Assembly (NCBI GenBank): GCA_028135785.1
Contig: JAOIHS010000003.1
Span: 1 to 64,000, forward strand
Reading direction: 5' to 3'
From: SAR86 cluster bacterium
GTDB taxonomy: Bacteria; Pseudomonadota; Gammaproteobacteria; Magnimaribacterales; AG-339-G14
Length of the DNA stretch: 64,000 bases
The position numbers were made by a program, and so were the translations under genes. This document shows, one piece after another, positions 43,124 to 54,278 of this stretch. Position 1 is the stretch's first letter, and each line of letters begins with the position of its first letter. A model generated the notes under the pieces. That model ran no database searches. It was not told where the DNA came from and saw nothing but the letters and a program-made list of their open reading frames with translations.

Positions 43124-44671
43124 TTAAAGATTTATAACTATTAATGATGGTCCGGCTTCATTAACTGATTGAGAAAATACTTTGGTAAATTCTTCTACGG
43201 TAGTAGGCATATAACTTGGAACGCCTAACGATTTAGATAATTGAATCCAATCAATTTTAGGATTGTCTAGAGATAGCATGGATTCTGCTCTATCGCCTGT
43301 CTGGACTGCCCCTACTCTATCCAGTTCTATTTTTAAGATTTCGTAAGAATTATTAGCAAAAATAATATTAGTGATATTTAAACTCTCTCTTGCTTGGGTC
43401 CACAAAGCCTGAATTGTATACATTGCCCCGCCATCGCCATGAAGTGTGATTATAGGTCTGTCAGGCTTGGCTATCGCAGCTCCTACCGCTAATGGTAATC
43501 CTTGGCCTATGGATCCTCCAGTTAGTGCAAGCCAATCATGAGGCTTTGCTTTCCAAGTATGTGGAGTTACTAACATCCCCGATGTTGCCGATTCATCTGA
43601 AACTATGGTGTCTTCAGGCATTAAACTTGCCAACAAAGGACCTAATGTAGATTGGTCTAATTTTCCTGAAGTTGGAATATCAATAACGCCGGATTGAATT
43701 AAATCACTATTAATTTGAGATGACCCTGCTTCATCTGATAAAGCTTTTAATGCTGATAAACCATCTTGATTAGGAGAACACAAATCAATGATATTTGCTT
43801 CATCAGGAGCTAAATAGCTTTTCTTTCCAGGATAGGCAAAAAAAGAAACAGGAGCATTTGTACCTATGAATACCATGTTGGAGGTATTTTTTAAAAACTC
43901 TTCGGCCATTTCTGCAAAATAAGGAACTTGTTCTAATATTGGTAATCCACTTCCTCTCCTAATTCTTGAAACAAATGTATCAGTTACAAGGCGACAACCT
44001 GTTGCACTTGATATTTCGGCAGCCAATTTTATACATTCTTCATTTAAAAACTTTCCTCCAATGAACAAAATAGATTTATCTTTATTGAGTGCTTCGACGG
44101 CCTTAGGAATCGATGATTCATCAATTTTTTTTGAATTGATTTGCTCTAATGGAGCGGGTATTTTTCCGTTAAATTCACCCCAAGCGCAATCGGCTGGAAC
44201 GATTAAAGTAGAAATTTGACCAGGGAATGCATTCGCTTTTTGCCAAGCTTCATTTCCTAAATTACATAGATCTTCCACACTATTGGATCTTCCTACCCAA
44301 TCTGACGCTGATTTAGATAAGTTATCTAAATCTGAGGTCAATGGTGCATTGTATTTAAGATGATAAGTGGCATGGTCACCAACGACATTTACCATTGGCG
44401 ATAAAGCTTTGCTAGCATTGTGAACATTTGCAAAGCTATTGCCTAATCCTGGGCCTAAATGCAGAAGATTTACTGCTGCCTTTCCAGACATTCTTGCGTA
44501 ACCATCAGCTGCACCACTTACCACTCCTTCAAACAAACCTAGAACAGGTCTAATTTCTGGATTATTATCTATTGCTGCAACTAAGTGCATTTCTGAGGTT
44601 CCAGGATTAGCAAAAACAACCTCTAATCCATTAGCTACTAATGTTTTGATTAGGGCGTCTGAGGCATTCAT
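43124..44671 (-). CDS. ThDP-dependent enzyme, acetolactate synthase-like/MdlC-like
   Basis: 515 aa. ThDP-activating Glu48 in GLFEGVVSGAADGYAR, pyrimidine-domain GPGLGN, and the Mg/ThDP motif LHGDGGAMY...NNSYEIL. The size and the absence of a small subunit argue for a decarboxylase or ligase of the benzoylformate decarboxylase-like group often mislabelled acetolactate synthase. It would act on a 2-keto acid. 7 nt after the HbpS-like gene. Confidence 0.85.
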   Translation of the reverse strand: MNASDALIKTLVANGLEVVFANPGTSEMHLVAAIDNNPEIRPVLGLFEGVVSGAADGYARMSGKAAVNLLHLGPGLGNSFANVHNASKALSPMVNVVGDHATYHLKYNAPLTSDLDNLSKSASDWVGRSNSVEDLCNLGNEAWQKANAFPGQISTLIVPADCAWGEFNGKIPAPLEQINSKKIDESSIPKAVEALNKDKSILFIGGKFLNEECIKLAAEISSATGCRLVTDTFVSRIRRGSGLPILEQVPYFAEMAEEFLKNTSNMVFIGTNAPVSFFAYPGKKSYLAPDEANIIDLCSPNQDGLSALKALSDEAGSSQINSDLIQSGVIDIPTSGKLDQSTLGPLLASLMPEDTIVSDESATSGMLVTPHTWKAKPHDWLALTGGSIGQGLPLAVGAAIAKPDRPIITLHGDGGAMYTIQALWTQARESLNITNIIFANNSYEILKIELDRVGAVQTGDRAESMLSLDNPKIDWIQLSKSLGVPSYMPTTVEEFTKVFSQSVNEAGPSLIVINL

Positions 44672-44678
44672 ATAAATT

Positions 44679-45131
44679 TCAAGAAGAATGACTAGGAATT
44701 AATCCAGCAGCTTCTACCCCTGCTATGGCAGAGATTTCATCTTGGTCTGATCTATCTCCAGATACACCAATTGCACCAATATTTTTTCCATCTTTTTGAA
44801 TAATTATTCCACCAGGAGTTGGAATTAATTTCCCACCTGCCATCGTTTGCATTCCTGTGAAAGCTTTATCCAATCGAGGCTGGTCTTCCAAAATATCTCT
44901 TATTGTATTTGTCGATGCACCGTAAGCTAGACAAGACCATGCCTTGGCATAAGCTATATCTGATCTTACAATGCTGCTCCCTTCTTCAGAGAGTGTTGCC
45001 CTTATAACTCCGGCTATATCTATAACAACAGCAGTTAATGGCATAAAGTTTTCAGCTCTACCCTTTTTTAAGGTTTCTTGGCAAATCAATAGAGCTTCGT
45101 CCAAGGAAATTTCACCTGGATTTTTTATCAT
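44679..45131 (-). CDS. HbpS/GlcG family heme-binding-like protein
   Basis: 150 aa. DUF336 core: SLDEALLICQETL, then MPLTAVVIDIAGV, IAYAKAWSCLAYG, and GGIIIQKDGKNIGAIGVSGDRSDQDE, with no signal peptide. HbpS binds heme and senses oxidative stress in Streptomyces; GlcG relatives sit in glycolate and 2-keto acid loci. Its pairing with the ThDP enzyme recurs in many bacteria and suggests a role in the same pathway, but the reaction is unknown. Confidence 0.85.
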   Translation of the reverse strand: MIKNPGEISLDEALLICQETLKKGRAENFMPLTAVVIDIAGVIRATLSEEGSSIVRSDIAYAKAWSCLAYGASTNTIRDILEDQPRLDKAFTGMQTMAGGKLIPTPGGIIIQKDGKNIGAIGVSGDRSDQDEISAIAGVEAAGLIPSHSS

Positions 45132-45139
45132 AGTTACTC

Positions 45140-47470
45140 CTAAAACTTATATCTTATCTTAATAATAAATTTATCTAAGGTTTGATTAGTCCAAGCATCA
45201 GAATATATATCAGTAATGCTGTCTGCTGAGTTTAAAATATTGGCAAGCTTTCCAGCTCTGGTATAAACCACATACAAGTTCGATAAAGGAGAAAATTCAT
45301 ATTTATATCTCATCTGCAAAGCTGTTTCTGATAATTGAAAGTCGTTCAATGAATCAGAGCTAGATTCCATATAGCCTGAATTAGAAACTCTATAAGCTCT
45401 AGAATTCTCGCCTGTTAAGCCATAAACCGTTGCTTTAATTTTAAATTCTTGTCGATTTCCAATGAATAAATCTAAGCTAGCTCCAGTAGAAACTAATCTT
45501 TTATCATAATATCCGAATAAATTTTCTGCGCTGTACTTAGACCAATTGTTTCGTCTCTCATAATTGAACCAATCAAGGGTAATTTGAGCCAATTCAGAAG
45601 GATTTATTTTTGTTGAATAACCCAAAGAGAAACTTTCACTTCTCAAGTCAGCAACCGAAGAGTTTGCTTGATAACCCGACGAGCTATATTTTATTTTGTA
45701 TATAGATTGATATCTTTTAGTATCTGGCGTTGAGTATGAGGAACTTAAATCAAAGGTAGAAAGTTGCTCGATGAAAGGTGCAGAAGCATATTTTCTAGTT
45801 TCAACATAATCCTTGCCCCTTGTAATCGAACACTCACATGCAAACTTAATTTTAGATCTGTCTTTGAACTGAGCTTCATAATTAAAAGAGAGACCAACTC
45901 CATTTCCATAACCTTGATTTGCTGATCTTTGATAGCCTAGTCTCAATCCAAACTCATGTTGAGCAATGGAAGAATTTTTGTCTAAAACAGGATTTAAATA
46001 TTCAAAGAAATTACCAAAAGAAAAATTATCTCTTTTTTTAATGTACCCCATATCATTGATATTAAAGTTCTCATGATGGTAATTAAGATAAGAGAAAGAA
46101 AACAATTTATCAGAAAATCTTTGTGCAAGAGTCGCACGCAATCCTGGACCGGATTTTTTTATGTTTTTTTCTTCGGTTTCAGCATTTCCTATCCATCCAG
46201 AAAACCTTTTAGAGTTTCCAAGATAAAAATCATAATCTACTACATGTACTTGCCCTTTTCTGTCTATAGATGGCCTATCAACAGCAGTAATTAAATAGCC
46301 AACTTTTCCATTAATGATCGATAGGTTTCTTTTGTATCTAGCGGCGAAGTAATCCCTGCCTTTAGAAAAAATTGAGTCATCTTCCGAAGCCGAAAAGAAG
46401 CCATATTGATTAGTTTTACCCTTCTTTGAGTATCTTAAAGCAAGATTAATATCAGATGATTTGTAAGCATAATCATCGCATTCACCTTTATGACTTTCTT
46501 TGGTAGCCGAGCACTTATCTGCAATGCCTCCAATTCTTCTGGTGTTAATAAAGTAGGTTTCCCAACCCGAGATATCAAACAAGGACTGATTTTCAGTAAA
46601 AAATGGTCTTTTATCTCTGTAGAAAGTTTCGTTAGCTGAAAAATTTACAATCAAATCATCGCTTTCTACTTGTCCAAAGTCTGGATTAATTGAAATATCA
46701 ATTTTTGTTTCTGAATCTAAATCCCAAAAGACCTCTCCTCCAATGTTAATAGATCTATTATTTTCTATAAAATTATTTGTCCCGCTTAAATAAGGAAAAA
46801 AATCTATTTTAGATCCTGTTGAAGTATTGGTTTTGTAATTATTAATGTAAATAGGATGAAGTTTTGATAAAAATGGAGCTTGAAAAATCCATAAGCCAGG
46901 CATATTGAAAAAAAGATTTTCATTCACATATTTACGAGCGACTGATACTTTAATTTCTCTTTCTTTTCCGTCAACTTCTGCCATTGGCGCTACACCCCAT
47001 GGAATGTAATATTCTGCTATCCAGGAGTCTTCATTTTGCGAAGTCTTTGCATACCAAATAGCATCCCATTTGTCTGAAAATTCATTTTCATTTGTGTAAA
47101 TTGCGTCTCTTAATGAGTCTCCAATGCTTACCCCAAACTCATATCCTGTATTTGCGTTACCATCAAAATCTATAATTATAAAAATTCTATCAGCGCTGAC
47201 CATAAAGTCATCACGGACGTGTTTTTTGGATGTTTGGGTTTTAAAGGGCTGCTCGCTAATTACTCCAAAATAAATACCTTTTTTATCTGAAAAATACTTA
47301 ACCTCAGTTTTATATTTCGGTTTAGATTTATCATTAGGAAAAACGGTGACGAAGTTATCAAAACTCTTCGCATTAGCCCACTCAGCTTCGGATAATTTTC
47401 CGTCAATATTAATTCCAAAAACACATGTATGTATAAATAACAGACTGATTAATAATAAATTTTTATTCAT
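45140..47470 (-). CDS. CBM9-like plus DUF5916 outer-membrane beta-barrel protein
   Basis: 776 aa. Signal peptide (MNKNLLLISLLFIHTCVFG), then an N-terminal family 9 carbohydrate-binding-like domain (IDGKLSEAEW...YFGVISEQP, FDGNANTGYEFGVSIGDSLRDA), then a long beta-rich region ending KFIIKIRYKF with a C-terminal Phe, as expected for an outer-membrane barrel. DUF5916 function is unknown. Cys residues in a loop (C342, C350 roughly) may pair. Ends 9 nt before the HbpS gene, so all three may be one operon with the EamA transporter upstream. Confidence 0.85.
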   Translation of the reverse strand: MNKNLLLISLLFIHTCVFGINIDGKLSEAEWANAKSFDNFVTVFPNDKSKPKYKTEVKYFSDKKGIYFGVISEQPFKTQTSKKHVRDDFMVSADRIFIIIDFDGNANTGYEFGVSIGDSLRDAIYTNENEFSDKWDAIWYAKTSQNEDSWIAEYYIPWGVAPMAEVDGKEREIKVSVARKYVNENLFFNMPGLWIFQAPFLSKLHPIYINNYKTNTSTGSKIDFFPYLSGTNNFIENNRSINIGGEVFWDLDSETKIDISINPDFGQVESDDLIVNFSANETFYRDKRPFFTENQSLFDISGWETYFINTRRIGGIADKCSATKESHKGECDDYAYKSSDINLALRYSKKGKTNQYGFFSASEDDSIFSKGRDYFAARYKRNLSIINGKVGYLITAVDRPSIDRKGQVHVVDYDFYLGNSKRFSGWIGNAETEEKNIKKSGPGLRATLAQRFSDKLFSFSYLNYHHENFNINDMGYIKKRDNFSFGNFFEYLNPVLDKNSSIAQHEFGLRLGYQRSANQGYGNGVGLSFNYEAQFKDRSKIKFACECSITRGKDYVETRKYASAPFIEQLSTFDLSSSYSTPDTKRYQSIYKIKYSSSGYQANSSVADLRSESFSLGYSTKINPSELAQITLDWFNYERRNNWSKYSAENLFGYYDKRLVSTGASLDLFIGNRQEFKIKATVYGLTGENSRAYRVSNSGYMESSSDSLNDFQLSETALQMRYKYEFSPLSNLYVVYTRAGKLANILNSADSITDIYSDAWTNQTLDKFIIKIRYKF

Positions 47471-48351
47471 AAAATTTTTACTGGATTTTTTTTAACATTA
47501 AAATAGTTTGTCATCCATACACCGAAGAGCATTAAAGAAAGCCCCATTACCATTAAAAAAGTTATTATTTCAGATAATAACAATGAGCTCCAGATCATCG
47601 CGGTAATAGGGATCAAATAGATGACTGTTGAAGCGATTAAAGCTGACGACCTTTTCATGATATAGATCCACCCCATGAGACCTAAAGATGTACAAATAAA
47701 ACTAAGAACAAGCAATGAAACAATAGAGACGGTCGATGGATTTAAATAAAAATTAGTATTAATTTCTAATAAAGTCATAGGGATAGAGCCAAAAGCTCCA
47801 AAAATTAAAGGAATTGTAGTTAAAACTATTGTGCTAATTTGTGGTAGCTTTTCTAAGATATTAGTACATATTGCATAACAAATTGAACCAATTAGACATA
47901 AAAAAACAGGATAAGCAGAAATGGCTAAGGAGTCGTACCCAGTGAAGATTATTAATCCAATAAAGCCTATTGTTATACCTGCTACTTGTTTAAAATTAAT
48001 ATTGTTACTAAAAAATAGAATTCCTATTAAAAGAACAAATATAGGTGTAGTGCCATTCAAAACAGCTGTAAGAGAAGCGTCTAAATCTACTGCAGCCCTT
48101 GCGTACAAGTAAAAAGGTATTGAAAAATTCAGAATTCCAATAACAAACAGAATAAAAATATTTTCTTTTATGCTTTTTATATCTGCTTTCTTAATAAAAA
48201 AAGATAAGAAAATTGCTGCTAAAAATAATCGAATAGTTGTCATAAAAGCAGGGCTAATATCTTGGACGATAATCTTATTGAGCATAAAGGATGCCCCCCA
48301 AACAAAACCAAGCAAAAGAATTAGGATGAAGTTAACTTGGGAGTTACTCAC
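47467..48351 (-). CDS. EamA/DMT family transporter
   Basis: 294 aa with ten TM helices in two EamA repeats (LLGFVWGASFMLNKII at the start, GLMGWIYIMKRSSALIASTVIYLIP in the second). DMT members export amino acids, metabolites or metals. ATGA-type 4-nt overlap with the CBM9-DUF5916 gene downstream, so co-translated. Substrate unknown. Confidence 0.87.
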   Translation of the reverse strand: MSNSQVNFILILLLGFVWGASFMLNKIIVQDISPAFMTTIRLFLAAIFLSFFIKKADIKSIKENIFILFVIGILNFSIPFYLYARAAVDLDASLTAVLNGTTPIFVLLIGILFFSNNINFKQVAGITIGFIGLIIFTGYDSLAISAYPVFLCLIGSICYAICTNILEKLPQISTIVLTTIPLIFGAFGSIPMTLLEINTNFYLNPSTVSIVSLLVLSFICTSLGLMGWIYIMKRSSALIASTVIYLIPITAMIWSSLLLSEIITFLMVMGLSLMLFGVWMTNYFNVKKNPVKIL

Positions 48352-48369
48352 TTTAAAAAAATACTAAAT

Positions 48370-49341
48370 TTAATTTAAAACTTTTTCTGTTCTTAGGAAT
48401 TTAAAGAAACATAAAGTTGCTGCTGCACATAATAAATGCCATATCCCATGCGCCTGAATCAATGAATCTGGATAGCAATAAGGACTATCTGGTACGCCTC
48501 TTAGCCAAACGGTAAAAGCCAGTAAATAACACGCCATTCCAGCATAAAACCAATAGTAGTTAGCTCTACGATATCTTGGGGGATTTGGTGAAAGAATAGC
48601 TGGAACCCAAAACAGAAGTACCCACCAATATTTATCAAATTCCGCAATTATTTCAGTTGGAAATATTCCAAAGATAGCTGCAACAACAAATCCGATAAAA
48701 CCTGAAAGCCATCTAACTATCTGAGAATAAAATCTATATAAAAATTCAGAGACAATCCATAAACCAATTGATACGCCAAATAATTCAAATCCTATTCCCA
48801 TATCAGAACCCAAGAACCATCGCCCTAATCCGTCTATTGAGACAATTGAAAGATAAACAACAAAAAACTTCTTAAGCGACCATCTGCCCATTTCAGATAT
48901 ATTAATAAGCCAAGGCAGAATGATATACATCACCATGCTTAGATTGTCAGCCCAGCCACCCCAGTAGGTATGTGTTCCATGCATCAACATTGATCCAGGA
49001 CCTAAATAAATAGCACAACCTGCATACAGCATGGCTATCGGAGTAAAGCCGTGAAATTGATTTTTGCTTTCAGTATCTTTAGAGAGAACCCAAAACATAT
49101 ATAAACCTGTTGCCATGAATCCTAAATTAGATAGAGTGTTAACTGGCTCCCTAAACATTGAGTCACTTACGGATTCACACCATCTATGCGCCTCTCCTAT
49201 AACAGCACCTGGCTCTAAAGCAGTTACGAAACCAAAATAACCAAACACAACATATATAATTAAAAAAGCTGCACTAATTAAAAGCGCAATAGGAAAAACT
49301 TTCCCATGCCAAGATTCTTTTATAATACTTTGTGAACTCAT
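48370..49341 (-). CDS. CREST superfamily membrane hydrolase, alkaline ceramidase-like
   Basis: 323 aa, about seven or more TM helices. Metal-site residues of alkaline ceramidase ACER3 (S77, H81, D92, H217, H221) have counterparts with the same local spacing: S117 and H121 (GSMLMHGT), D132 (WADNLSM), H298 and H302 (QAHGIWH). EPVNTLSNLGF precedes, as in the family. It likely hydrolyses an amide or ester lipid in the membrane. I chose ATG 49341 after GAGGGGAG; a TTG at 49353 is in frame but worse. Confidence 0.8.
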   Translation of the reverse strand: MSSQSIIKESWHGKVFPIALLISAAFLIIYVVFGYFGFVTALEPGAVIGEAHRWCESVSDSMFREPVNTLSNLGFMATGLYMFWVLSKDTESKNQFHGFTPIAMLYAGCAIYLGPGSMLMHGTHTYWGGWADNLSMVMYIILPWLINISEMGRWSLKKFFVVYLSIVSIDGLGRWFLGSDMGIGFELFGVSIGLWIVSEFLYRFYSQIVRWLSGFIGFVVAAIFGIFPTEIIAEFDKYWWVLLFWVPAILSPNPPRYRRANYYWFYAGMACYLLAFTVWLRGVPDSPYCYPDSLIQAHGIWHLLCAAATLCFFKFLRTEKVLN

Positions 49342-49430
49342 AACTCCCCTCAATGGTTTTTATAAATATATATTTTATAAGAAAATATAAAATATTATTC
49401 TATCGTTAAGTTAGTATAGCTTTCTTATTT

Positions 49431-49628
49431 ATGATTTATATAATTTCAGCTTTAATATTTTTTTTAACATTTATATTTAGCTATAAGTTTTTCAATTATT
49501 TAAAAAGTAAATATCTTTTAAATATTGAAGACGAGAATTTATATATGGCTTTTGGCTTTCTGGCTCTTATTTTAACTGCAGGATTTTCTCTGGCTTCTTC
49601 ATCCCTTTTCTTAATTTTACTAACTTAA
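49431..49628 (+). CDS. 65-aa two-helix membrane protein
   Basis: Two hydrophobic helices (residues 2-24 and 42-63) around a short charged loop (KSKYLLNIEDEN). No family recognised. It ends 3 nt before the oligopeptidase B start, so it may be the leader gene of that operon. The gap upstream (49342-49430) is AT-rich with TATAAT-like stretches for both directions. Confidence 0.55.
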   Translation: MIYIISALIFFLTFIFSYKFFNYLKSKYLLNIEDENLYMAFGFLALILTAGFSLASSSLFLILLT

Positions 49629-49631
49629 TAT

Positions 49632-51665
49632 ATGAACAACCCGCCTAAGCCAAAAAAATTACCTAAAAAATTATTAGCGCATGGAGACGAAAGAATCGAT
49701 GATTACTATTGGCTCAGAGATGACGATAGAAATAATGAAGAAGTAATTTCGTATTTGAAAGAAGAAAACGCATATTTAGAGAGCTGGTTTGCTTCAAAAA
49801 ATGATGCGAGAAAAGAAATCTATAAAGAAATGGTTTCGCATATTCCTGATGCAGAAACTTCGATGAAAATTAAAAGAGATGATTACTTTTACTTTTCAGA
49901 AATGGAGTCAGCAAAACAACATAGTGTTTATTTTCGAGAAAAAGATAATAAAAAAGAATTGTTATTAGATATTAATGAGATGGCTAAAGATCACGATTAT
50001 TATAGCGTTTCTTCATTGGCACCCTCCCCTGATCATAAATTAATTGCATATAGTGAAGATCTCTCCGGACGAAGAGAGTTCAATATAAAAATTAAAGACT
50101 TATCAAAAAACATTGTTATCGATGAAGCTATCAAAAATAGCTCGGGAAGCGTTATTTGGTCTCCATGTAACGAGTTAATTTTTTATACAAAGAAAGATCC
50201 CGTTACCCTGATCACCAATAAAGTTTTAAAACATGTTGTTGGCCAACCTCAAAATAAAGATGTAATTGTTTATGAAGAAAAAGATCCAGAATTCAATTTG
50301 AGCATAGGCAAATCTCGAAGCAAAAAATATTTATACATTTATATTGGGAAAACAGAATCATCAGAAACATTATTATTAGACTTAGAAATAAAAAATTCAG
50401 AATTAATTTCTATATTGCCTCGAGAAGAAAAACACTTATATTCTGTTGAAGATACGCCCGAATGCTTTTATGTACTGACAGATACTGACAATGCTAAGAA
50501 TTTTAAACTGATGAAATTTAATTTAGATCAGATGGGTTCAAAAGATTCTTGGGAGACTGTGGTCGAGCATAATCCAAAAATACTTATTGAAGGATTTGTA
50601 ACTTTTCCTGATTATATTTTTCTTGAAGTTAGAGAGGATGGCTTGCCTAAAATAATTCGTTTGGATAGAACTAATTTATCAAAAAAAAATATTGATTTTA
50701 ATGACCCTGCTTACAGCGCTTATTTGTCGGTAAATAATGATTATTTCAGCGATGAAATATATTTTGGTTATTCTAGTCCAAAAACTCCTAGTTCAGTCTT
50801 CAAACAGAACATAGAGTCCGGTCAAAGAGAACTTGTTTGGAAGCAACAAGTTAAAAACTTTGATGAATCATCCTATTCGGTTGAGCGTTTAAAAATCAAT
50901 GCTCGGGATAATGTAAAAGTTCCAGTCTCTATGATTTATAGAAATGATATTGACCTAAAGAACGCTCCTATTTTAGTTTATGGCTATGGGTCGTATGGAA
51001 GTATTATGGATGCAGGCTTCAGAACCTCTATTCTTCCTTTGTTAGATAGAGGATTTATCTTTGCAGTAGCAAATATTAGAGGCGGCTCAGAAATGGGGAG
51101 ACAGTGGTATGAAGATGGAAAAATGTTGAAGAAAATGAATACCTTTAATGACTTTATCGACTCTACGAAATCTTTAATAAAACAAGGGTATGGTTCAGTC
51201 GATAAGGTATTTGCTATGGGCGGCAGCGCTGGTGGCTTGCTGATGGGAGTTATAGTAAATTTGGAGCCAGAATTATATAAAGGCATCATTTCGGCTGTGC
51301 CCTTTGTAGACGTTCTTACTACTATGTCAGATGAGTCGATTCCTTTAACAACTTTTGAATATAAAGAATGGGGAAATCCGGCTATCAAAGAAGAGTATGA
51401 ATATATAAAACAATATTCTCCATACGATAATATCGTTCCTTCTTACTACCCTACTGTTTTAATTACATCCAGTCTTTACGATTCACAAGTTCAATATTAT
51501 GAGCCTGCTAAATATGTTCCAAAATTAAGAGAAAACTCTCTATCAGAAAATCCAATTTTAATGAAAATGAACCTGGTGGGCGGACATGCTGGAAAGAGCG
51601 GAAGGTTAAATGCTATTGAAGAAAGCGCTTTGGATAACGCTTTTTTATTAAATCTACTGGATTAA
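49632..51665 (+). CDS. ptrB: Oligopeptidase B (S9A prolyl oligopeptidase family)
   Basis: 677 aa. N-terminal beta-propeller, then the hydrolase with YGYGSYG, ANIRGGSEMGRQWYEDGK, nucleophile in MGGSAGGLLMG, acid in SLYDSQVQYYEPAKY and His in GGHAGKSGR. It cleaves small peptides after Arg or Lys in the cytoplasm. Length matches the family. Convergent with the symporter gene at 51685. Confidence 0.93.
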   Translation: MNNPPKPKKLPKKLLAHGDERIDDYYWLRDDDRNNEEVISYLKEENAYLESWFASKNDARKEIYKEMVSHIPDAETSMKIKRDDYFYFSEMESAKQHSVYFREKDNKKELLLDINEMAKDHDYYSVSSLAPSPDHKLIAYSEDLSGRREFNIKIKDLSKNIVIDEAIKNSSGSVIWSPCNELIFYTKKDPVTLITNKVLKHVVGQPQNKDVIVYEEKDPEFNLSIGKSRSKKYLYIYIGKTESSETLLLDLEIKNSELISILPREEKHLYSVEDTPECFYVLTDTDNAKNFKLMKFNLDQMGSKDSWETVVEHNPKILIEGFVTFPDYIFLEVREDGLPKIIRLDRTNLSKKNIDFNDPAYSAYLSVNNDYFSDEIYFGYSSPKTPSSVFKQNIESGQRELVWKQQVKNFDESSYSVERLKINARDNVKVPVSMIYRNDIDLKNAPILVYGYGSYGSIMDAGFRTSILPLLDRGFIFAVANIRGGSEMGRQWYEDGKMLKKMNTFNDFIDSTKSLIKQGYGSVDKVFAMGGSAGGLLMGVIVNLEPELYKGIISAVPFVDVLTTMSDESIPLTTFEYKEWGNPAIKEEYEYIKQYSPYDNIVPSYYPTVLITSSLYDSQVQYYEPAKYVPKLRENSLSENPILMKMNLVGGHAGKSGRLNAIEESALDNAFLLNLLD

Positions 51666-51684
51666 TTTTATTAAAAAATAAATT

Positions 51685-53322
51685 TTAGCTATTAGAAAGA
51701 TAATCTTTCAAAAGCGATCTAATTTCTTTTCTTAATAAAATCATGGCTATTAAGTTCGGCAAAGTTGAAGCAGCGACAGTTATCAAAGCAAAATTCCAAA
51801 TAATTCCCGTATCAATTAAGCCACTACCTGCTACAAACATAGCGCCTAGATAAAAAATACGATAATAAATAATCGAGCCCTCTCCAAATAAATAAGAGGC
51901 GCATCTATCGCCATAATAAGACCAAGTGATCATTGTTGAAAAAGCAAAAAGCAATAAACCTATCGAGACAATGAACTCGCCATAGTTACCAAAAAAGCCT
52001 TTATTAAAAGCTTTGCTTGTTAAAACTGCGGATTTAACTAAAGACTTGCCTTCAACATCTATATTTGAAGAAGCCAATAAACCTTTTTCGATTGCGATTG
52101 AGCCGGTGTATAAAGCCCCGTCTTGATAAAGAAATACTTCTTCTGCTAAAGATCTATTATGAAAAATGGCATTATTTTTAATTAATTTCCCTTGATCGAC
52201 CTTTATCTCTCCAGAAAAACACTCTGAATTATCTCTGCAATCTTTATAGGCGCCTATTAAGTCGGAAGAAGATTTTTCAGAGTCAGCTTCAGATAGAAAA
52301 TACATAGACGTTCGTTCGAATTCAGTTTGATACTTTTCTGTCCATACTCCGGAAGCCATAATCACTAATCCAGTTAATGTACAAATGACTATGGTATCGA
52401 TAAAAGGTTCTAGTATTGAAACAAAACCTTCTTCTACCGAATGTTCGGTGTTGGATGTTGCGTGGGCAATAGGTGACGAGCCTTGTCCAGCTTCATTTGA
52501 ATATAGACCCCTAGCAACTCCATAAGTAAAAGCTGTTGAAAAAGAAGCTCCTAAAAAGCCGCCCACAACAGCCGTACCATTAAAAACGTCATGAATAATT
52601 ACATATAAAGAAGGAAGGATATTTGAATAATTAAATATAAGAACGCTCAGAGAGCCAATGATGTAAATAAGCGCCATGGTCGGAACAATAGAAGCAGCAA
52701 AGCTAGCAATTCTGTTAATGCCGCCGATTATGACAAGTCCTACTAACGAAGTCATGACTACTGCTGTAATCAATGGATTCACACCAAAGCTTGAATTCAA
52801 CGTATTAGAAATATTATCGATTTGTGGCATATTGCCGCTTCCAAAAGTTGAAACTAACAAACAAAAAGCAAAAATATAACCCAACCACTTCATGTTGAGC
52901 CCTTCTTCCATGTATATCATTGGTCCACCTGAAACAGCTTCTGAGCCGATTTTTTTTCTATATTTATGCGATAACGTTACCTCTACAAACTTTGTAGTCA
53001 TTCCTAAAAAGGCTGTGATCCACATCCAGAAAAGCGCAGCTGGCCCACCAATGAATATAGCCATCGCAACTCCACCTATATTTCCAGTTCCAACAGTGCC
53101 AGACAAAGCCGTACTTAAAGCCTGAAAGGGACTGGTTAAACCTTTGGAACCTGAAAACCCACCAGTTCCCAAAATTGACCAGCCTTTTCGAAAGAACCTA
53201 ATTTGGGGAAAGCCTAGATAAAAAGTAAAAAATATACCGGTTGCTAAAAGTGACAGTGGAAACCATGCTGCACTTCCAAAATAACTATCTATTAATAAAA
53301 TATAGTTATTTAATTTATCCAT
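51685..53322 (-). CDS. Alanine/glycine:cation symporter (AGCS) with a large extra loop
   Basis: 545 aa. AGCS hallmarks: TALSGTVGTGNIGGVA, FWMWITAFLGMTTKFVEVTL, SGGPMIYMEEG, YSNEAGQGSSPIAH and LFAFSTMITWSYYGDRC. It imports small neutral amino acids with Na+. A hydrophilic segment of about 110 residues (328-440) lies where the usual AGCS loop is about 20 long; it contains two Cys and Asx-rich repeats and should sit on the external face. Confidence 0.88.
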   Translation of the reverse strand: MDKLNNYILLIDSYFGSAAWFPLSLLATGIFFTFYLGFPQIRFFRKGWSILGTGGFSGSKGLTSPFQALSTALSGTVGTGNIGGVAMAIFIGGPAALFWMWITAFLGMTTKFVEVTLSHKYRKKIGSEAVSGGPMIYMEEGLNMKWLGYIFAFCLLVSTFGSGNMPQIDNISNTLNSSFGVNPLITAVVMTSLVGLVIIGGINRIASFAASIVPTMALIYIIGSLSVLIFNYSNILPSLYVIIHDVFNGTAVVGGFLGASFSTAFTYGVARGLYSNEAGQGSSPIAHATSNTEHSVEEGFVSILEPFIDTIVICTLTGLVIMASGVWTEKYQTEFERTSMYFLSEADSEKSSSDLIGAYKDCRDNSECFSGEIKVDQGKLIKNNAIFHNRSLAEEVFLYQDGALYTGSIAIEKGLLASSNIDVEGKSLVKSAVLTSKAFNKGFFGNYGEFIVSIGLLLFAFSTMITWSYYGDRCASYLFGEGSIIYYRIFYLGAMFVAGSGLIDTGIIWNFALITVAASTLPNLIAMILLRKEIRSLLKDYLSNS

Positions 53323-53334
53323 ATCTTTTTAGAT

Positions 53335-53556
53335 TTAAGATGTAATTTCGGCAGCAAATTCTGTGTATCCGCCTATTAAAACTCCATCGATTGTAATTTG
53401 CGGAAAGGTTCTAGCAGAGGGAAATTTAGTAAATAAATCTTCTCGAGTGTAATCGACATCAAGCATATATTTTTTGAATTCAAGATTTTTTTGCTTACAA
53501 AGACTCTCAGCTTTGTCACAATAAGGACAATGTGGTTTAGACCAAATTTCTATCAT
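53335..53556 (-). CDS. Glutaredoxin, dithiol CPYC type
   Basis: 73 aa from ATG 53556. Active site KPHCPYCDKAE and the GSH-binding TFPQITIDGVLIGGYTE. It reduces protein and GSH-mixed disulfides. The open frame runs up to 53604, but those 16 residues are not glutaredoxin-like, and AGAGGT sits before ATG 53556. Divergent from the membrane protein at 53589 across 32 bp. Confidence 0.92.
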   Translation of the reverse strand: MIEIWSKPHCPYCDKAESLCKQKNLEFKKYMLDVDYTREDLFTKFPSARTFPQITIDGVLIGGYTEFAAEITS

Positions 53557-53588
53557 AATTACCTCTTTAAAATTAATACAATTAAAAT

Positions 53589-54278
53589 ATGACAATAGCT
53601 CCACTTTTCGAAGGATTCAAGTTTTACTTTCAATCAGTTAAAAAATATACAAGTCAAACCGCTCCTATATTCATTTTGTTAGGTTTGCTTTCTGCAAGTT
53701 CTGATATTCTTCTCAATAGTGAAATGTTATTTACATGGGGAATATTAATTTTTATATTCACCAATGTTTTTTTATCGCCCTTCTTAACTGCTTTTAGTAT
53801 TTTACTTGTTAGCGACCTGTCTAATAACTCTTTAAAGGAAAGCATCGGATACTATCTTGTCTCTTTCCAGATTTGTTTAAAGGTCTTGTTATTGACGCTT
53901 GCCACTGGAGCAATAGTTGTTGTCGGTCTTATATTATTTATCTTTCCGGGAGCTTACCTAGCATCTAGACTTTTATATGGTCCCTATTATTTAATTGTTG
54001 AGGGAAAAACAGTTATCCAAGCCATGGATCTTTCCTGGTCGAGTACGAAAGAAAAGTCTATGGATTATATGACTATCTTATTTCTTTATTGGGCGACTTT
54101 AATTATTGTGACCTTCTTGGTCCTTACAACAATTTCCGCCTTTGTAATAAGTTCTGGCGAGGGTTCTTTACCATTCCTAATCAATGTTATTGCTAATACT
54201 TTTTTATCTTACCTGCAGCTCGTCCTTATTAGTTATCCAATTTTCTATGTTTATAAAAACATGGATAGTAATTTTTAA
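53589..54278 (+). CDS. Polytopic membrane protein, YciC/UPF0259-like
   Basis: 229 aa with about six TM helices. The block VVGLILFIFPGAYLASRLLYGPYYLIVEGK...AMDLSWSSTK is the feature shared with YciC/DUF975-type proteins. No function known. Its stop lies 5 bp from the end of the broken MAPEG gene on the other strand. Confidence 0.7.
   Translation: MTIAPLFEGFKFYFQSVKKYTSQTAPIFILLGLLSASSDILLNSEMLFTWGILIFIFTNVFLSPFLTAFSILLVSDLSNNSLKESIGYYLVSFQICLKVLLLTLATGAIVVVGLILFIFPGAYLASRLLYGPYYLIVEGKTVIQAMDLSWSSTKEKSMDYMTILFLYWATLIIVTFLVLTTISAFVISSGEGSLPFLINVIANTFLSYLQLVLISYPIFYVYKNMDSNF

Follow-up and report, generated by a model that had tools for sequence, protein, structure and literature searches.

A strictly conserved, putative ACER-branch CREST hydrolase of SAR86 bacteria with a predicted periplasm-facing zinc site

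The stretch of SAR86 cluster DNA analysed here (64,000 nucleotides, hereafter the window) carries a CREST/PF05875 gene at 48370..49341 on the minus strand, whose strictly conserved product of 323 aa is very probably a hydrolase from the ACER branch of CREST proteins and, as a member of its Pfam family, an ordinary one. Its unusual points are added helices and host bacteria without a detected SPT gene. Taken as a whole, the protein is best explained as a periplasm-facing intramembrane zinc hydrolase that deacylates an N-acyl lipid, perhaps an imported one, although in its entirety this explanation could equally turn out right or wrong.

The gene is an open reading frame that starts with ATG at 49341 and has its stop codon ending at 48370; GAGGGG lies just 5' of the start. 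An earlier note on this DNA had named S117, H121, D132, H298 and H302 as a putative metal site, and the translation bears this out for all five residues. The first three form CREST motifs one and two (S117-x3-H121-x10-D132, 48946..48993, minus strand) and the last two form motif three (H298-x3-H302, within QxHxxWH, 48436..48450, minus strand). Defined as S+4H+11D followed by HxxxH in the part beginning 100 aa further on, the full pattern was found in 25 of 100,000 shuffles of the protein and in one of the 56 open frames of at least 150 aa within the window. In an alignment of the window protein with 80 named relatives, kept from 161 named matches and bearing their depositors' own titles, the five residues are invariant (81/81). 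The same is true of E65, N68, N72, C289 and Q296, and W54, C55 and E56 are found in all 80 sequences that have a residue there. One copy outside this set (L047, genome G044) has alanine at the position of S117; exchange of the corresponding serine for alanine in ACER3 is reported to leave about 0.17% of the activity (PMC9436119).

Against the Pfam profile Ceramidase (PF05875), the window protein scores 46.4 bits with a cut-off of 32.5, and all 42 sequences of the marine family alignment A2 match this profile at E up to 0.001. The motifs SxxxH, Asp and HxxxH, by which section 13 of PMC3146951 defines the CREST superfamily, are all present. Searching the window protein with PF03006 (Hemolysin III/PAQR) gave no match at E up to 1, and no NCBIfam model was found for the five PF05875 proteins tried. 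The exact ACER-type spacing emphasised in the earlier note is present but not diagnostic of ACERs, since the same S+4H+11D and HxxxH spacing is shared by 6/6 members of A3 and 15/15 members of A4, two sets of gammaproteobacterial PF05875 proteins from loci of a survey of 369 genomes of the class. Being common to other bacterial PF05875 groups, it is a mark of the ACER-like CREST branch rather than of ceramidases in particular. At the sequence level, the immediate link to ACER3 is weak: ACER3 was neither matched by the window protein in phmmer nor found among the matches of the A1 profile, in both cases at E up to 10, and hhalign to one single ACER3 stretch gave 12.7% (E 0.0023, 78 columns). 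A2 is linked to A3, the YCE group, at 99.4% (E 8.6e-22), and the A3 profile finds human ACER3 at E 8.9e-8. The profile link to A4 is weak (47.5%, E 1.9e-4).

The AlphaFold2 model of the window protein, built from 42 sequences (pLDDT 91.7, pTM 0.89), has human ACER3 (6g7o) as its best solved match in VIA-align (Z 18.4, rmsd 3.5, 216 residues), which together with the PF05875 matches upholds the earlier description of the product as a CREST protein from bacteria whose zinc site resembles that of ACERs. The best rows after ACER3 belong to SID-1 (15.9), Myomaker (14.2), ADIPOR (13.6) and GPCR (12.0), with some SID-1 rows below the best GPCR row. Foldseek returned nothing under E 0.001 and placed five chains of the SID-1 family above ACER3 (E 4.1e-3). 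The high rank of SID-1 family chains, first by Foldseek and second by VIA-align, would fit a receptor, channel or pore-like protein without enzymatic activity, as claimed for hemolysin III or SID-1, and proteins of the SID-1 family are likewise described as having extra helices (PMC3146951, section 13). Such a function is nevertheless very improbable, because the catalytic residues are invariant in all 81 sequences and because, compared with Ceramidase in 42 of the 42 scanned A2 members, HlyIII matches three weakly (best E 1e-4) and the SID-1 family profile one.

The seven-helix core of the CREST fold is predicted for the window protein, both from the VIA-align rows above GPCR and from the long helices of the model. 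Eleven helices of at least 10 residues are present in the model; those at 126-140 and 142-152 directly adjoin and were counted as one. The resulting ten would correspond to the seven core helices, one helix ahead of the core and an inserted pair. The predicted additional N-terminal membrane helix, TM0, comprises residues 15-36 (49234..49299, minus strand), of which 17-36 form a hydrophobic segment. Averaged over the 81 sequences, after segments split by the scan had been rejoined by eye, predicted inside loops contain 2.2-3.0 K+R and outside loops 0-0.5, except for the RWCE loop, which is predicted outside with a mean K+R of 2.8 alongside 4.5 acids. These charges place the N-terminus and the C-terminus inside and the RWCE, S/H/D and H/H loops outside, and we infer from them that the metal site probably faces the periplasm.

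By analogy with the zinc residues and mechanism of ACER3 (described in PMC9436119 and PMC6303388), the CREST protein would act as an ACER-branch zinc hydrolase within the membrane, with Zn2+ bound by H121, H298 and H302, the attacking water oriented by D132 and the oxyanion stabilised by S117. W54 and E65 may pack behind the metal, and a likely disulfide between C55 and C289, as between C21 and C196 in ACER3, would pin the N-terminal loop. The core, with its added N-terminal helix and inserted helix pair, would lie in the inner membrane with the metal site towards the periplasm, so positioned as to act on a lipid of that membrane's outer leaflet, from which it would cut a fatty acyl chain, most probably an amide-linked one. 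The first-choice substrate would be a ceramide-like N-acyl lipid from seawater, cleaved to release a free fatty acid. Hydrolytic activity as such is highly probable, and cleavage of an amide rather than an ester bond is slightly favoured. The choice of an imported ceramide-like lipid as substrate was made by elimination and is tentative.

A function as lipid esterase, similar to phospholipase A as proposed for Per1, is doubtful in our estimate. Cleavage of amide as well as ester lipids has been proposed for members of CREST (PMC3146951), and the window's family showed no special pathway for amide lipids, which would suit an esterase, but the PF05875 and ACER3 matches favour the amidase branch.

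Elimination of the cell's own sphingolipids is based on the lipid pathways of the host order, which bear out the earlier remark that such bacteria are not known for abundant sphingolipids to the extent that no gene for SPT-type synthesis was found. The SPT model NF047599 was over its cut-off in none of 101 genomes of the SAR86 order, the window's own genome being 64.9% complete, and was passed by 2 of 14 control genomes. Matches to alpha-oxoamine synthases were obtained in 67 of the 101 genomes, with at most one in each at E up to 1e-20, one split gene aside. Forty loci from 38 of these 67 genomes comprise 19 enzymes close to that of the window's own genome and 21 distant ones; for the remaining 29 genomes, the score was the sole criterion. 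The two further SPT models, NF047600 and NF047603, were applied to nine of the alpha-oxoamine synthases, which were classified as 5-aminolevulinate synthase (six) or glycine C-acetyltransferase (three), so that SPT was rejected for those examined. Since SPT was over cut-off in 0/101 genomes by NF047599, one of the three models, the CREST protein is unlikely to be involved in sphingolipids of the cell itself, and the lipid that it cleaves is probably something other than a self-made sphingolipid. Among 31 further gene-bearing genomes, drawn from the 80 named loci and mostly not titled SAR86, SPT was over cut-off in two.

PF00282, which we take to be the family of sphingosine-1-phosphate lyase, was over cut-off in 0/101 genomes and matched 6/101 at E up to 0.001. 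This lack, like that of a conserved partner gene, counts against the preferred explanation. Sphingosine kinase was rejected as an interpretation of PF00781, which matches weakly in 43/101 genomes and is over cut-off in 19, in frames of mostly 277-304 aa that are presumably NAD kinases. Ornithine-type lipids were likewise rejected, with PF13444 over cut-off in 11/101 genomes, none of them in the window's family f1 (best 30.2 bits). A search for sphingolipid or ornithine-lipid genes nearby, proposed in the earlier note, came back empty for the nine window genes scanned at 43124-54278 and for ten families of neighbouring genes from relatives that were scanned too; elsewhere in the window, the translations were read.

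The alpha-oxoamine synthases also touch on haem synthesis. Glutamyl-tRNA reductase (PF05201) was found in 38/101 genomes, all of families f3 and f4, and a 5-aminolevulinate synthase-like enzyme in many genomes of f1 and f2 (six classified and 19 loci similar). The window's own genome has such a gene (G000 contig C16, L191:8959-10221), beside genes that we presume from their translations to be hemC, hemB, hemE and hemH. The SAR86 order thus seems to split by its route to the haem precursor; a literature search for SAR86 with aminolevulinate found no paper on it.

LpxC passed its cut-off in 19 of the 21 SAR86 genomes examined, with no match in the window's own genome or in G045, and lipid A is thus an amide lipid at hand in these bacteria. 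The CREST protein might accordingly deacylate a self-made amide-linked lipid, for example lipid A or N-acylated lipoproteins, and so remodel the envelope, for which the predicted orientation of the metal site towards the periplasm would be suitable. We consider this rather unlikely, because three genomes of genus g3 (G009, G012 and G015) have LpxC, yet the CREST gene was found in 0/16 genomes of this genus, one of them 96% complete, and because no gene family recurs beside the CREST gene across lineages in 101 loci, some of which are the same gene taken twice, as unnamed and named record. An imported N-acyl lipid is the substrate that we continue to prefer.

In the window, the CREST gene is followed 18 bp downstream on the same strand by a gene for an EamA transporter (47467..48351, minus strand), for which clustering revealed no homologue in any of the other 100 loci and which stands where two same-genus genomes have the small protein c20. 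The next gene, encoding a DUF5916 protein (45140..47470, minus strand), is likewise found two genes downstream of CREST in the same-genus loci L042 and L046. Together with genes for an HbpS-like protein and a TPP enzyme, these genes occupy 43124-49341 on the same strand with gaps of 18, -4, 8 and 7 bp, and because the gaps are so short, the five may form one operon. An operon-based assignment of function was rejected, as the neighbours vary by lineage. The secreted-looking family c27, without Pfam match, lies at most 90 bp from the CREST gene in four of the eight loci where it occurs; in L086, L089, L088 and L090 it has signal-peptide-like starts and the same strand as CREST. These loci are titled SAR86 or Gammaproteobacteria, plus some titled OCS116. 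Family c22, another of this kind, adjoins the CREST gene in 10 loci of genus g4. Both occur in too few lineages to name a function. In a locus titled SAR86B (L082:5121-5864), a proteorhodopsin-like gene (PF01036, 157.5 bits) is located directly upstream of CREST on the same strand.

The search in related genomes that the earlier note had suggested showed a patchy distribution, with the gene in 52 of the 101 genomes of the order (own included) and in 21 of its 38 near-complete ones; genera g1, g2 and g4 are among those that carry it. PF05875 was over cut-off in 37 of the 369 sampled genomes of the class, among them that of the window and two more from its order. A search of 398 evenly drawn Pseudomonadota with the A2 profile (E up to 1e-10) yielded only the genome of the window and a single partial match. 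The named relatives are titled SAR86, PS1 and OCS116 clade, OM182, Pseudohongiella, Woeseia, Pseudomonadales, plain Gammaproteobacteria and other Alphaproteobacteria, with a few SAR202/Chloroflexi MAGs. None of 86 candidate stretches of viral contigs was confirmed as a virus-borne copy, and plasmids gave two distant matches (22-23% identity), from Leptospira and Hymenobacter, annotated as 'ceramidase domain-containing protein'.

The window protein is 70-74% identical to three copies from genus g16 of family f2 and 50-51% identical to the copies of two genomes of its own genus (50-52% over six genomes of the genus). Eight flanking proteins were matched in both of these two genomes with 56-87% identity, order and strand around the CREST gene being conserved for six of them, and a ninth was matched in one of them (52%). 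In a tree of 59 sequences, the root of which is unreliable because the outgroup branch is very long, the window copy groups with the f2 copies (support 0.974) and three same-genus copies stand elsewhere. A copy that resembles the gene of another SAR86 family, at the locus of its own genus, suggests replacement by transfer at the same locus as the simplest reading. Wrong binning of the contig was judged unlikely, because in both order and similarity the flanking genes agree with the window's genus.

Bacterial members of CREST close to the alkaline ceramidases have been on record since 2011, when section 12 of PMC3146951 suggested a ceramidase test. Our literature search, judged mostly by titles and openings and with subscription journals largely outside, found no assay of such a protein. 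A more far-reaching reading is that a clade of pelagic bacteria such as SAR86 and PS1, mostly without detected sphingolipid synthesis, strips fatty acids from the ceramides and further N-acyl lipids of algae and algal viruses by means of a periplasm-facing, ten-helix relative of ACER. We regard this as improbable, and if true, it would make these bacteria a sink for marine sphingolipids that has so far gone unrecognised. The marine clade offers a clean test, as it combines a strictly conserved zinc site with bacteria lacking a detected SPT gene, so that any activity on amide lipids would point to a scavenged or unknown lipid.

Compared with the other bacterial PF05875 proteins, the marine family shares with A3 the CE motif and the zinc spacing. 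A3 proteins are shorter in five of six cases (211-263 aa; the sixth has 315 aa), and in their consensus the N-terminal helix, the insertion in the middle and the Q of QxHxxWH are missing; they are perhaps the hypothetical group 2 of PMC3146951. A4 proteins (211-278 aa) share the S+4H+11D and HxxxH spacing but have HxxKH in place of HxxWH and no WCE motif, and perhaps represent hypothetical group 1 with plant SAG18 of the same paper. With ACER3, the window protein has in common all five residues of the (H)3SD site in the same spacing. According to PMC6303388, the Ca2+ motif D19WCE(X)N24, 32AEF34 and C196 are strictly conserved in ACERs. The counterparts of W20, C21, E22 and E33 are kept in the marine family, where residues 53-56 (RWCE, 49174..49185, minus strand) correspond to D19-W20-C21-E22, with W, C and E in 80/80 sequences, and E65 (49147..49149, minus strand) corresponds to E33. 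C289 (48475..48477, minus strand), paired with C196 by its place in the loop ahead of the last helix, is the likely partner of C55, and both cysteines for the equivalent of the C21-C196 disulfide are present (80/80 and 81/81). In contrast, the place of D19 is taken by R in 68 and G in 7 of 80 sequences, that of N24 by V, I or L in 80/80, and AEF mostly reads REP (R 71, E 81 and P 80 of 81, with P at F34). ACER3 has seven helices, whereas the model of the window protein has ten long ones. TR-FRET places the N-terminus of ACER3, and hence its metal site, on the cytoplasmic side (PMC6303388), which differs from the side predicted here; for ACER2, an orientation opposite to this result has been reported (PMC3146951). 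With the counterparts of D19 and N24 lost, the strict ACER Ca2+ motif is broken, and the window protein is for this reason filed as an ACER-branch CREST hydrolase and not as an ACER ceramidase.
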